Assembly: GCA_022785125.1 (NCBI GenBank)
Contig: JALFRA010000029.1
Coordinates: forward strand, 1-64,000
DNA length: 64,000 bases
Direction of reading: 5' to 3'
Origin: Clostridiales bacterium
Lineage (GTDB): Bacteria > Bacillota > Clostridia > Oscillospirales > Oscillospiraceae
Shown: piece after piece, positions 24,867 through 50,351 of the stretch
Position numbering within the stretch: the stretch's first letter is position 1
How the letters are laid out: every line of letters begins with the position of its first letter
Translations under genes and position numbers: made by a program
Notes under the pieces: model-generated
Database searches by the model: none
What the model saw: only the letters and a program-made list of their open reading frames with translations
Told to the model about the DNA's origin: nothing

Positions 24867-25008
24867 GCCACGCCTCCCCTGCGCCAAGCCTCGGCGCTTT
24901 TGCGCCGTACAAGCGTTTTGCCAACGGCAAAACCTTGCCGCAGGCGGAATTCACTTCCGCCGAGGATGATAAAAACTCAGGGGTCCCCGCAGATGCCTGC
25001 ATCTGTGG
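24867..25008 (-). repeat. Type A hairpin element at truB start
   Basis: 142 bp, read on the minus strand. Head hairpin GCCCCACAGATG/CATCTGCGGGG, then GACCCCTGAGTTTTTATC, a GGCGGAA...TTCCGCC stem, the core AAGGTTTTGCCGTTGGCAAA, ACGCTTGTACGGCGC and a final GCGCC/GGCGC stem. Head and core match the elements near nusA, tyrA, gpmI and infB. The left end abuts the cut truB fragment and the right end supplies the ribosome site of the intact truB. Confidence 0.85.
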
Positions 25009-25071
25009 GGCGCAGATATCCATGCTGGTCCAGTCTTGGGGCTTATCAATAATAATCACTCCGTTAGGCAT
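25009..25071 (-). pseudogene. Truncated 5' copy of truB
   Basis: Codons 1-21 of truB (start MPNGVIIIDKPQDWTSMDIC) with its original start: ATGCCTAA overlaps the nrnA stop TAA. It differs from the intact gene's 5' end at six positions, five synonymous. The one replacement (Pro/Ala at codon 2) is fixed by the overlap with the nrnA stop. Reading continues in frame into the element for about 70 codons in total. Confidence 0.9.
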
Positions 25072-26023
25072 CGTTTTCCACCTTCTGGATGGCATCCAGG
25101 ATAGCGGCCTCCGCCTGCTCCAGCGTGCCGTTGACCGTGCAGCCTGCGGCAGCGGCGTGCCCGCCGCCTCCCAGCAGAGCGCACACACGGGTAGCGTTCA
25201 GTCCGCCGCTGGTGCGGACGGACAGCTTGCAGGCCCCATCCTCCAGTTCCCGGATGGTGACGGAGGTCTCCACCCCTTCGATCTGGCCCAGGAAGGCGGC
25301 AATGTCCTCCATATCCTCCTCAGTAGCCCCGGCCTCGTCCATCAGAGACAGGGACACAGGAGCCACGGCAATCTTGCCATCCTCATAGCGGTGCATCCGC
25401 TCCACAATGAGTCGTTCCACCTGGAGCCGGGCCCAGCTCTTGGTACGGAAGTGGCGTTTGTTCAGGGGGAATACGTCCATACCGGTGGCCATCAGAGCGG
25501 CAGCCACCCGGTGGCTGTCCGCCGTGGTGTTGCCGTACTGGAAACAGCCTGTGTCGGTGGATACCGCCACATACAGGGGAACCGCCGTCTCCTGGTTGAC
25601 CTGTCCCAGTTCTTTCAGAATGTCATAGATGATCTCACCGCAGGCCGCCCGCCCGGCGTCCAGGCAGGTCTCCTTGGCAAAAAACTCCTGAGAGGGATGG
25701 TGGTCGATGGCCAGATCAATGCCCCGCTCCAGCCAGGGCTGACCAGATTTGGTAAAAAGGCTCCGGGCGGCGATATCCACACTGACCACCGTCTCCGGCT
25801 CATAGCCCTCGGGGGCCAGAAGCCCCTCCAGATAGGGGGTGAACAGATGGGTCTCCCCGGTGCCGGGGCAGATATGGGCTGTCTTGCCCAGACCGCGCAG
25901 GCCACGGCACAGTGCGGCGGCACAGCCGATGGTATCTCCATCGGGCCGCTTGTGGGTCAGGATCAGATAGCGGTCGTGGACACGCAGCCAGGCCGCAGCT
26001 TCGGTATAGGTCATGGAGCTCAC
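25064..26023 (-). CDS. nrnA: Bifunctional oligoribonuclease / PAP phosphatase (DHH family)
   Basis: Degrades nano-RNA and dephosphorylates pAp to AMP. 319 aa. The DHH domain includes HKRPDGDTIGCAAALC, SVDIAARS and the defining DHH in AIDHHPSQEFF. The C-terminal DHHA1 domain has GGGGHAAAAGCTV. Start overlaps the rbfA stop (ATGA), and the stop lies inside the truncated truB start, preserving the original gene coupling. Confidence 0.93.
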   Translation of the reverse strand: MSSMTYTEAAAWLRVHDRYLILTHKRPDGDTIGCAAALCRGLRGLGKTAHICPGTGETHLFTPYLEGLLAPEGYEPETVVSVDIAARSLFTKSGQPWLERGIDLAIDHHPSQEFFAKETCLDAGRAACGEIIYDILKELGQVNQETAVPLYVAVSTDTGCFQYGNTTADSHRVAAALMATGMDVFPLNKRHFRTKSWARLQVERLIVERMHRYEDGKIAVAPVSLSLMDEAGATEEDMEDIAAFLGQIEGVETSVTIRELEDGACKLSVRTSGGLNATRVCALLGGGGHAAAAGCTVNGTLEQAEAAILDAIQKVENDA

Positions 26024-26409
26024 TCCTCGCTGTCCAGATCGATGTGGGCGTTGGCCGGATTGGCAGGCTTCACTACCTCCGGATTCCGCAGCATACTCAG
26101 AATGTGGGCGCCCTGACCGATGGAGTCATCCTCCACAAATTGCAGCTCGGGGGTATAGCGCAGCTTTAGGGCCGCACCCAGCTCCCGCCGCAGATAGCCC
26201 CCGGCGGATTTAAGTCCCTTGACCACCTCGCTCACGTCGCTCTTGTCCAGCACGCTGACATAGATCTTGGAATAGCGCAGGTCAGAGGTGGTATCCACGC
26301 CGGTGATGGACACCAGTCCATGGACCCGGGGGTCCTTGACCGTGCGGATGAGGGTGGCCAGCTCCCGCTGAATCTCCTCGTTGATACGTCCAATACGATT
26401 ACTTGCCAT
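26020..26409 (-). CDS. rbfA: 30S ribosome-binding factor A
   Basis: Late 30S assembly factor. 129 aa, normal length, a single KH-type fold: RIGRINEEIQRELATLIRTV, VSITGVDTTSDLRYSKIYVS and LRRELGAALKLRYTPELQF are the family motifs. It follows infB, but the usual short infB-rbfA junction is expanded to 535 bp by repeats. Confidence 0.96.
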   Translation of the reverse strand: MASNRIGRINEEIQRELATLIRTVKDPRVHGLVSITGVDTTSDLRYSKIYVSVLDKSDVSEVVKGLKSAGGYLRRELGAALKLRYTPELQFVEDDSIGQGAHILSMLRNPEVVKPANPANAHIDLDSEE

Positions 26410-26431
26410 ATTTTTCTCCTATTACGCAATA

Positions 26432-26476
26432 CAGACCCGCCCCCTCCTCAAATGAATTGGGGACGGAACGGGTCTG
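26432..26476. other. Hairpin upstream of rbfA
   Basis: CAGACCCG (26432-26439) pairs with CGGGTCTG (26469-26476) around an inner CCCC/GGGG stem, with GATTTTTTATT on the plus-strand side. It lies between rbfA and the repeats after infB. A terminator here would cut the operon, so partial function or processing is more likely. Confidence 0.5.
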
Positions 26477-26492
26477 ATTTGATTTTTTATTA

Positions 26493-26712
26493 TTACACTT
26501 CGGTCTGCTCCACCGCAGCGTTAAGAAGATTTGCCGGTGGCAAATCTTTAGCGCAGGCCGGCACGGCTATGCCGGGCCGGAGGCACTCCGCAAGAAGCAG
26601 AGTTATGCCTCAATCTGCTCCACCGCAGCGTTAAGAAGATTTGCCAGTGGCAAATCTTTAGCGCAGGCCGGCACGGCTATGCCGGGCCGGGGGCACTCCG
26701 TAAAAAGCAGAA
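26493..26712 (+). repeat. Two tandem 110-bp units: infB tail plus type B element
   Basis: Each unit starts with the reverse complement of the last infB codons and its stop (TTA at 26493 and 26603; tails EQTEV and EQIEA against the true EQIEV), cut at the same point, then about 90 bp of type B element: CCGCAGCGTTAAGAAGATTT, a TTTGCC/GGCAAA stem, GCGCAGGCC, a GGCC...GGCC stem and GGCACTCCG. The outermost tail is the most diverged, as if insertions had been added one after another at the infB stop. Confidence 0.85.
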
Positions 26713-49140: not shown

Positions 49141-49194
49141 AGTTTACCTCTGTTCTAAAAGATCGACATGATGCGTCCGGGCGCTCCGCGCTTC

Positions 49195-49217
49195 TTACTC
49201 CTGATTGGCAGCGTTGA
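49195..49217 (-). pseudogene. Truncated 3' copy of tpiA
   Basis: Last seven codons plus stop (NAANQE-stop). 23 bp with two differences from the intact end at 49306, both synonymous. Confidence 0.8.
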
Positions 49218-49305
49218 CCGCAGCGTCAAGAAAATTTGCCGGCGGCAAATTTTTAGCGCAGGCCCTGCCGGCTATGCCGGCAGGGTGGCACTCCGCAAGA
49301 AGCAA
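49218..49305 (+). repeat. Type B element at tpiA stop
   Basis: 88 bp: CCGCAGCGTCAAGAAAATTT, a TTTGCCGGCGGCAAA stem, TTTTTAGCGCAGG, CCCTGCCGG/CCGGCAGGG, GGCACTCCGCAAGAAGC. The same layout as the two units after infB, 22 kb away; the terminal stem has a different sequence but stays paired. Confidence 0.88.
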
Positions 49306-50079
49306 TTACTCCTGGTTGGCGGCGTTGATGATCTCCACGAAGTCGGGGGCCTTCAGGGAAGCGCCGCCGATGAGGCCGCCGTCCACGTCGGGCTGAGAGA
49401 GCAGCTCCTGGGCATTCTTTGCATTCATGGAGCCGCCGTACTGGATGGTGACGGAGCGGGCCACGCGGGCGCCGTACAGCTTGCGGATCACAGCGCGGAT
49501 GGCCTCGCACACCTCGTTGGCCTGCTCGGCGGTAGCGGTCTTGCCGGTGCCGATGGCCCAGATGGGCTCATAGGCGATGACCACATGACGCATCTTGTCG
49601 GCGGGCACACCAGCCAGAGCGGCCTTCACCTGATAGGAGATCAGGTCCATGGTAACGCCCAGCTCACGCTGCTCCAGGCTCTCGCCCACGCACACGATGG
49701 GGTACAGGCCAGCCTCCAGGGCGGCGTGGACCTTCTTGTTGACGGTAAAGTCGGTCTCATTGTAGTACTGACGGCGCTCGGAGTGGCCGATGATAACGTA
49801 CTTCACACCGATCTCCTTGAGCATCTCAGGGGAAACCTCGCCGGTGAAGGCGCCGTGGGACTCATAGTGGCAGGTCTCGGCGCCAATGGCCACGCGGCTC
49901 TCCTTGAAGAGGCGCACAGCGGCCTGGAGGTTCACAGCAGGTACGCACAGCACAACCTCACACCACTTGGGCTTGCCGATGAGGGGCTTGAGCTCCTCAG
50001 CAAAGGCGCGGGTCTCGGAGAGGGTCTTGTTCATCTTCCAGTTGCCAGCAATGATGGTCTTACGATATCTTCTGTTCAT
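49306..50079 (-). CDS. tpiA: Triosephosphate isomerase
   Basis: Interconverts dihydroxyacetone phosphate and glyceraldehyde 3-phosphate. 257 aa: [11 protein letters not shown] (substrate Asn/Lys), [15 protein letters not shown] (catalytic His), and [14 protein letters not shown] (catalytic Glu), with [12 protein letters not shown] and [10 protein letters not shown] near the end. Start at 50079. It follows pgk in transcription order after a pgk fragment and element. Confidence 0.98.
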
Positions 50080-50187
50080 GGGTAAATGGGCCCCTTTCTT
50101 CCATTTTCTCTCTTGGGTTTTGATCCGGTTGGATCTGCGGCATATCTTCCGCAGGCTCAGTTTTGACGCTGAGGCGGCGCCTGTCTA

Positions 50188-50218
50188 TTAAGCATCCAGC
50201 AGGCAGGCCACGCCGGGC
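50188..50218 (-). pseudogene. Truncated 3' copy of pgk
   Basis: Last nine codons and stop of pgk ([13 protein letters not shown]), 31 bp with two differences from the intact end, both synonymous (Ala and Asp codons). Confidence 0.85.
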
Positions 50219-50351
50219 TCGTCGACGCAAGCTCCATATCTCTCGCTTCCCCGCAGGCGGAAAAGCTCGCTCATTTCGCTGCGCCTCCTCTCCCCACGAA
50301 ACCCGCTTCGCTGGGCTTTCGCGGGGGCCCCGGGAGCTGCCCGGAGCACAA
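50219..50351 (+). repeat. Third-type element at pgk stop
   Basis: 133 bp not matching types A or B overall: CTCGCTTCCCCGCAGGCGG, CTCGCTCATTTCGCTGCGC, then a hairpin CCCCACGAAACCC...GGGCTTTCGCGGGGGCCCC that resembles the type A head. Same gene-fragment / element / intact-gene arrangement as the others. Confidence 0.7.

Follow-up and report, generated by a model that had tools for sequence, protein, structure and literature searches.

The described architecture closest to the one reported here is that of mobile endonuclease open reading frames (ORFs) in fungal mitochondria, which bring a substitute C-terminus to the gene that they enter. In the examples from the part of PMC3630166 drawn on here (atp6 of Allomyces and atp6, atp9, cox2 and nad3 of Glomus), the element has on one side the inserted gene end, which is functional, and on the other the native end that was displaced; of the two ends in Glomus, the native one is similar to the gene of a relative and the inserted one is not (PMC3630166). 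We describe small hairpin elements, designated type A, in a stretch of 64,000 nucleotides (nt) from a Clostridiales bacterium of the Oscillospiraceae (positions 1 to 64,000 of contig JALFRA010000029.1, hereafter the window), which lies on contig C29 of the source genome, G000 (G-numbers denote the genomes compared, L-numbers the loci). Like the fungal elements in that account, type A elements have a gene terminus on both sides, one copy of which is functional. Unlike the fungal LAGLIDADG and GIY-YIG elements treated there, they are bacterial, do not encode a protein, reach 44 copies or more per genome and contain a stretch complementary to their insertion site. That the functional end is foreign, as in the fungal elements, is favoured by nusA of G016 and by a synonymous bias between the gene-end copies; similarity within genomes, when genera are compared, speaks against it (see below).

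With a length of approximately 140–210 nt in the window, type A copies are too short for a homing endonuclease gene. Within group I and group II introns lies a sequence that is complementary to the gene on either side of the insertion point, and type A possesses a comparable complement across its insertion site, as far as complementarity alone is concerned. Unlike these introns, however, the elements gave no match to an Rfam family at the gathering score (24000–51000 of the window), G000 has no group II maturase, and the gene end is duplicated instead of being cleanly interrupted. Mycobacterial interspersed repetitive units (MIRU) enter at the start codon and have a small ORF that is coupled to the next gene. 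Unlike MIRU, stop-type type A copies (defined below) have their junction 36–139 nt inside the gene, with a copy of the gene end; the two share, going by the part of PMC12548453 drawn on, that they are small repeated elements at gene boundaries which do little harm to the gene (PMC12548453). The dusA islands, as portrayed in the portion of PMC8409611 used here, also keep their target gene functional by means of the incoming sequence, but are large, have an integrase and use one target each (PMC8409611). Repetitive extragenic palindromic (REP) sequences, bacterial interspersed mosaic elements (BIME) and other small palindromic repeats resemble type A as non-coding hairpin repeats between genes. 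To our knowledge, neither gene-end duplications nor site complements are known for REP/BIME. In the open-access literature (subscription papers were not covered) we could not find an element that unites a small non-coding body, a gene-end copy and a complement of its site, and to that extent the combination has not been described so far.

Gene-end duplications and element structure

Elements had been predicted at seven genes of the window, and the reading frames of all seven (truB, infB, nusA, tyrA, gpmI, tpiA and pgk) were open, as predicted. NCBIfam models named TruB, IF-2, NusA, prephenate dehydrogenase (tyrA), GpmI and triose-phosphate isomerase; the sole NCBIfam match of pgk was the bifunctional Pgk/Tpi model, below its cut-off. 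Gene-end duplications were present at all seven genes in the predicted positions (alignment and inspection by eye). Identity by alignment was 57/63 at the truB start, 46/46 at the infB stop, 127/145 at the nusA stop, 40/49 at the tyrA start and 41/51 at the gpmI stop. By eye, each member of the tandem type B pair at infB has a duplication of approximately 20 nt; the duplications at tpiA and pgk measured 23 nt and approximately 32 nt. The original description had two element types, A and B; the pgk element belongs to a third kind, type C. Type A is present at truB, infB, nusA, tyrA and gpmI and type C at pgk. Type B has three copies, a tandem pair at infB and a single one at tpiA. Allowing at most one mismatch, the type A core pattern occurred nine times in the window (2.75 expected), and the five exact occurrences are the five elements; the type B pattern occurred three times (0 expected). 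The features are as follows, the junction (I) being the position in the gene where the fragment copy stops and the element begins.

25009..25071, minus strand: truB gene-start fragment (displaced copy), beside the end of nrnA
24908..25016, minus strand: type A core at the truB start (R1 match), with the tail continuing to 24867
24879..24888, minus strand: complement of truB across the junction, within a longer scored span (−7 to +12)
24804..24866, minus strand: intact truB start, duplicated stretch
26712..26757, minus strand: infB gene-end fragment
26757..26864, plus strand: type A core at the infB stop (R1 match), tail to 26943
26899..26911, plus strand: complement of infB across the junction
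26944..26989, minus strand: intact infB end, duplicated stretch
30279..30423, minus strand: nusA gene-end fragment
30418..30524, plus strand: type A core at the nusA stop (R1 match), tail to 30594
30558..30570, plus strand: complement of nusA across the junction (−10 to +3)
30595..30739, minus strand: intact nusA end, duplicated stretch
39126..39174, plus strand: tyrA gene-start fragment
39167..39276, plus strand: type A core at the tyrA start (R1 match)
39294..39301, plus strand: weak 8-nt complement of tyrA adjoining the junction
39333..39381, plus strand: intact tyrA start, duplicated stretch, ATG at 39334
47360..47410, minus strand: gpmI gene-end fragment
47406..47571, plus strand: type A core at the gpmI stop (R1 match), extra sequence in the loop of hairpin 2
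47601..47619, plus strand: complement of gpmI across the junction (−14 to +5)
47619..47669, minus strand: intact gpmI end, duplicated stretch
26513..26602, plus strand: type B element, first of the tandem pair at infB
26623..26711, plus strand: type B element, second of the tandem pair at infB
49218..49306, plus strand: type B element at the tpiA stop
50222..50350, plus strand: type C element at the pgk stop

As the original prediction had proposed, the element was searched for in relatives and its flanks were tested. A covariance model built from the core of 26 copies found type A at at least 44 places in G000 at E ≤ 1e-3 (150 of 1582 candidates were scored) and in 52 of 150 genomes of the family. 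From 115 model matches, 103 were tested, after removal of 12 weak ones: 11 repeated, on the opposite strand, a place already included, and the other, L148, was a weak place of its own. In 96 of these 103 copies, from G000 and relatives, the repeat shared by the left and right flanks exceeded the 95th percentile of 103 mismatched flank pairs, and in 81 it exceeded every one of them. The repeat ended within 10 nt of the start of the core in 84 copies. In the alignment of 26 copies, 97.4% of the cells pair, against at most 52.9% when the pairing is slid. Hairpin 2 shows changes on both sides in seven of its nine pairs; hairpin 3 is invariant, partly because its sequence served to pick the copies.

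The gene side was assigned by codon scoring, ORF-based calling being unreliable in this GC-rich DNA. Among the 87 copies with a strong repeat adjoining the head (16 were dropped), 76 were stop-type, with the element antisense to the gene and its tail toward the stop codon, and 11 were start-type. Ten stop-type copies, most of them from the interior of tandem arrays, and three start-type copies with a low margin were then removed, leaving 74 clear cases. Their polarity was fixed: the tail points to the intact terminus, at the stop codon in 66 and at the start codon in eight. The order of parts is native flank, gene terminus up to I (the fragment), the head hairpin followed by hairpins 2 and 3 and in some copies by more hairpins, a complement of 10–20 nt across I, a short untranslated stretch or terminator, and the complete gene terminus, continuing into the gene. 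The elements had been thought to insert at the start or stop codon itself. The hairpin element and the long gene-end copy were found as predicted, but the junction lies inside the gene, 36–139 nt from its end in stop-type copies. The duplication accordingly comprises 36–139 coding nt plus flank, longer and more variable than those made by ordinary transposases, as had been claimed.

In 27 of the 76 stop-type copies the repeat starts between positions −1 and +2 relative to the stop codon; it starts at most 19 nt inward and may reach further outward, for example over a duplicated terminator (L163, L104, L087 and L077). The codon phase of the junction was uneven, with 36 of the 66 stop-type loci at phase 1 and 18 and 12 at the others. 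No strong motif was found at I, where C is mildly preferred at −1 and +1 and G at +14, with a codon periodicity. The complement lies 0–7 nt from the terminator stem in the four loci with a scored terminator, and in 11 of 55 loci it directly adjoins the stop codon (the scoring window ended at the stop, 0 meaning contact).

A complement of the gene across the junction

In most elements, approximately 10–20 nt of the tail form a complement of the intact gene that spans I. This was scored by matching the tail, without gaps, to the reverse-complemented sequence of the intact gene near I, for the 74 elements and 369 mismatched pairs. A score of at least 8 was reached by 71 elements and by 22% of the mismatched pairs, and a score of at least 10 by 60 elements and 3.5% of the pairs. 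Coverage by the complement was 0.84 at −4, 0.59 at +2 and 0.15 at +6 (control 0.10, 0.05 and 0.03), and agreement was 83–97% from −7 to +2 in 60 elements picked for a span over I, a choice that inflates the figure. With gapped alignment the test was weaker (49 of 73 above the 95th percentile, 38 of 73 above the 99th); there the median score was 12 in inverted and 6 in direct orientation.

The complement fitted the intact gene across I better than it fitted the fragment plus head in 66 of the 74 elements, with four ties and four worse. A score of at least 10 was found on the element side in 83% of 66 loci, in the native flank of the fragment in 15%, and in 2% of 264 controls. Because the native flank mostly lacks a complement, the complement belongs to the element side, and on the same figures a native inverted repeat as its source was mostly rejected. 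The ten loci with a native-flank score of at least 10 were six tandem-array loci and L104, L087, L090 and L110. At asnS (L087) the arm of the native terminator resembles the complement, and a native origin is possible for this locus.

Occupied and empty sites, and the type A family

Comparison with element-free strains revealed empty nusA and infB sites in relatives, identifying these as true insertions. Both states occur in one genus: among Flavonifractor-group genomes the two sites were occupied in some and empty in others, and the sequence that follows the stop codon in empty genomes is the one that follows the fragment in occupied genomes. At nusA, type A was present in G000, G007, G016 and G003, and in tandem in G014. 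By eye, it was degenerate in G013 and G011 and absent from G002, G018, G012, G004, G009, G015 and G001, and in G005, G006, G010 and G017 another, type C-like, sequence occupied the place. At infB the junction lay 45–46 nt from the gene end in G000, G002, G005 and G006 and 85 nt from it in G016 and G014, and type A was absent from G018, G004, G009, G015, G017 and G010 (the infB end of G007 lay outside the compared stretch). Between genomes, the point at which a given gene is hit can be shared or can differ. In nusA of G016, the last bases of the fragment and the sequence following it correspond to the empty gene end of G004, and the functional end and its following sequence correspond to G000; the rest of the fragment does not discriminate.

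The two gene-end copies were compared in 61 of the 66 stop-type loci, five being skipped for gaps or low similarity. They differed by 299 substitutions, 204 of them at third positions, and 33% of the substitutions fell in amino-acid-changing codons, against 77% expected if neutral. The stop codons differed in 25 of the 61 loci, and in 17 of these one true stop replaced another. Because the differences are mainly synonymous, they do not fit a plain target-site duplication with neutral decay. The functional end may derive from a diverged allele that arrived with the element, or conversion may tie the copies together; within the genus, nusA of G016 favours carriage of the gene end with the element.

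The third-hairpin pattern was present in all 20 genus genomes and the reversed control pattern in none. A stricter pattern was found in 53 named contigs, mainly of Flavonifractor and also of Pseudoflavonifractor, Intestinimonas, Galloscillospira and other Clostridiales/Eubacteriales. No viral contig had the strict core pattern, which leaves carriage by phages unsupported. Core identity between loci in the same gene of G000 and the complete genome G119 was in the random range for three of four pairs, the fourth having 0.78 (random 95th percentile 0.76); for five same-gene pairs of G000 and G004 it was 0.91–0.99. Twenty target proteins of G000 were searched and 17 could be named, including alaS, dtd, ssnA, fhs, gdhA, upp, rubrerythrin, asnS, mutL, trmFO, recF, smc, glyS and pheT.

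Several further observations were made. At L112, L140, L147, L109, L150, L154 and L059, units of fragment plus element are repeated in tandem and are nearly identical, which unequal recombination would be expected to produce. At L049 and L056 the gene that the element seems to follow, after a terminator, encodes a tRNA and not a protein (by eye). The gpmI element has approximately 60 additional nt inside the loop of hairpin 2 (47460–47525), perhaps an insertion within the element. The tandem type B pair at infB (26490–26711) has a period of 110 nt, with approximately 20 nt of the infB end per copy, and the type B pattern was found at eight places in six of the 20 genus genomes. Within 50332–50347, the type C element at pgk contains an 11/12 complement of pgk across its junction (by eye). 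A type C-like repeat, similar to the element at pgk, is present in the 3’ flank of nusA (G005, G006, G010 and G017) and of infB (G017), with no gene-end copy evident by eye; at L054 the end of such a repeat is joined to the head of a type A element (by eye). A palindromic stretch of 28 nt occurs twice in the window in inverted orientation (45887–45914 and 54866–54893; 96% complementary).

Origin of the type A insertions

The original prediction had pictured a dispersed hairpin element inserted with a long gene-end duplication, and that much holds. It does not merely insert at the gene end and leave a duplicated terminus, however: the junction is well inside the gene, the element carries a complement to that junction, and the copies differ as functional coding sequence does. 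Since the complement marks the junction, the polarity is fixed and the ends lie near stop codons or terminators, entry directed by a guide is suggested. We put at about one in two the probability that type A is a guide-bearing homing element that restores the gene end and encodes no protein. Such a small non-coding element would enter a chosen point I inside the end of a conserved gene and leave the gene whole; the complementary stretch would be the guide, pairing with the gene at I upon entry into an empty allele, and the intact terminus would be delivered with the element, pushing the native end aside. More tentatively, and with the odds against it, the intermediate might be an RNA in which the 3’ end of the messenger is fused to the guide and element; it could direct a nick at the guide-matched point and be copied from there, writing the element and a fresh gene end, with the enzymes perhaps supplied in trans. 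This would resemble prime editing, and each copy would, on the same doubtful premise, record the complement of its own landing site.

Several results weigh against the homing element or its RNA intermediate. No transposition was observed. The two infB insertions at 85 nt (G016 and G014) showed no complement in the scored search (8/11 nt by eye), the tyrA complement is short, and the type B copies at infB and tpiA have no guide evident by eye; type B may work otherwise than type A. Mismatches in the complement showed no wobble bias (34 and 28 compatible transitions, 87 transversions), as pairing with RNA might have left, and the 3’ end of a messenger does not account for start-type copies. Between genera, the gene-end copies are much more alike within than across genomes (for L100/L155, 0.97 and 0.99 within and 0.73–0.74 across), so that foreign gene ends were not carried between genera there; conversion or repeated insertion would be favoured by this pattern. 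Finally, none of the five enzyme families searched (group II maturase, IscB, Y1, IS110 and reverse transcriptase) tracked the element. The group II maturase domain (GIIM) was found in nine of 150 genomes and not in G000, G004, G018 or G119. The IscB domain (RRXRR), found in two of 150, was absent from G000, unlike what an obligate mobile element-guided activity (OMEGA)/IscB system would have (TnpB was not searched for). Y1 occurred in 47 of 150 genomes. Unlike in IS110 systems with a bridge RNA, the IS110 recombinase was present in only eight of 16 element-bearing genomes and was absent from G119. RVT_1 occurred in 12 of the 16, as a mixed set by eye; the sole match of G000 is on contig C1, away from the window on C29, unlike a diversity-generating retroelement, with its reverse transcriptase beside the repeat. 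A reverse transcriptase frame is present at L226, the upstream part of which reads by eye like the variable region of such a retroelement.

An ordinary DNA transposon, non-autonomous and cutting with a wide stagger that leaves target-site duplications of great and variable length, of which gene-sparing insertions survive and to which the complement is secondary, would account for direct repeats across nearly all copies, for the empty sites and for repeats that never start deep in the gene (largest offset +19 nt), as selection would demand. We nevertheless consider it fairly unlikely. The complement matches the intact gene on either side of the junction, the copies differ mainly at synonymous sites, and survival alone does not demand the clustering of repeat starts near the stop codon (−1 to +2). 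The duplication is also neither short nor fixed, unlike that of a miniature inverted-repeat transposable element. A related autonomous transposase may exist outside Y1 and IS110, the transposase families searched, neither of which follows the element. Patchy presence among close relatives, often with empty sites, is difficult to reconcile with old insertions kept as host 3’-end structures, whose tail would pair with the coding region of the same messenger while conversion keeps the copies alike. The agreement of copies within genomes (as at L100/L155), the folds of six elements, which are stable (z −2.1 to −6.2), the fit of the complement to the neighbouring functional gene and the recurrence of the same genes with similar I in different genera agree with this idea; but a messenger structure does not explain why the complement straddles the junction of the displaced fragment, wobble-compatible changes are not enriched, and we rate it as rather improbable.

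In template switching at the replication fork, the nascent strand would depart from the gene at I, copy the element, continue for a short way along the opposite strand across I and rejoin its template behind the end of the gene. This would yield the duplication and the inverted site copy in one event and needs no dedicated enzyme. Orientation in G119 follows the chromosome half, with 11 plus-strand places at 2.6–4.2 megabases (Mb), six minus-strand places at 0.7–1.9 Mb and one exception at 0.89 Mb, although this may merely reflect the orientation of the genes. The same two switches would be required at dozens of genes and the return at stop codons or terminators is left unexplained, which makes this account distinctly improbable. 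That the elements are shrunken remains of integrase-type islands restoring their target gene is very improbable indeed: one conserved small core lies in dozens of unrelated genes, and no integrase is present in the element. We know of no integrase-island system that includes a complement of the target site. What recommends the idea is that dusA islands, in the portion of the source concerned with this, restore the reading frame (PMC8409611).

Even if the complement is a by-product, this structure occurs at dozens of places per genome, including nusA, infB, smc, recF, mutL and tRNA ligases, and the origin of the gene-end duplications can be tested directly with strains that have or lack the elements. 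If the reading of the complement as a guide is true, tiny selfish elements of bacteria would find conserved sites in housekeeping genes by base pairing and repair the damage with a gene end, a new mode of mobility and perhaps a tool for programmable insertion.

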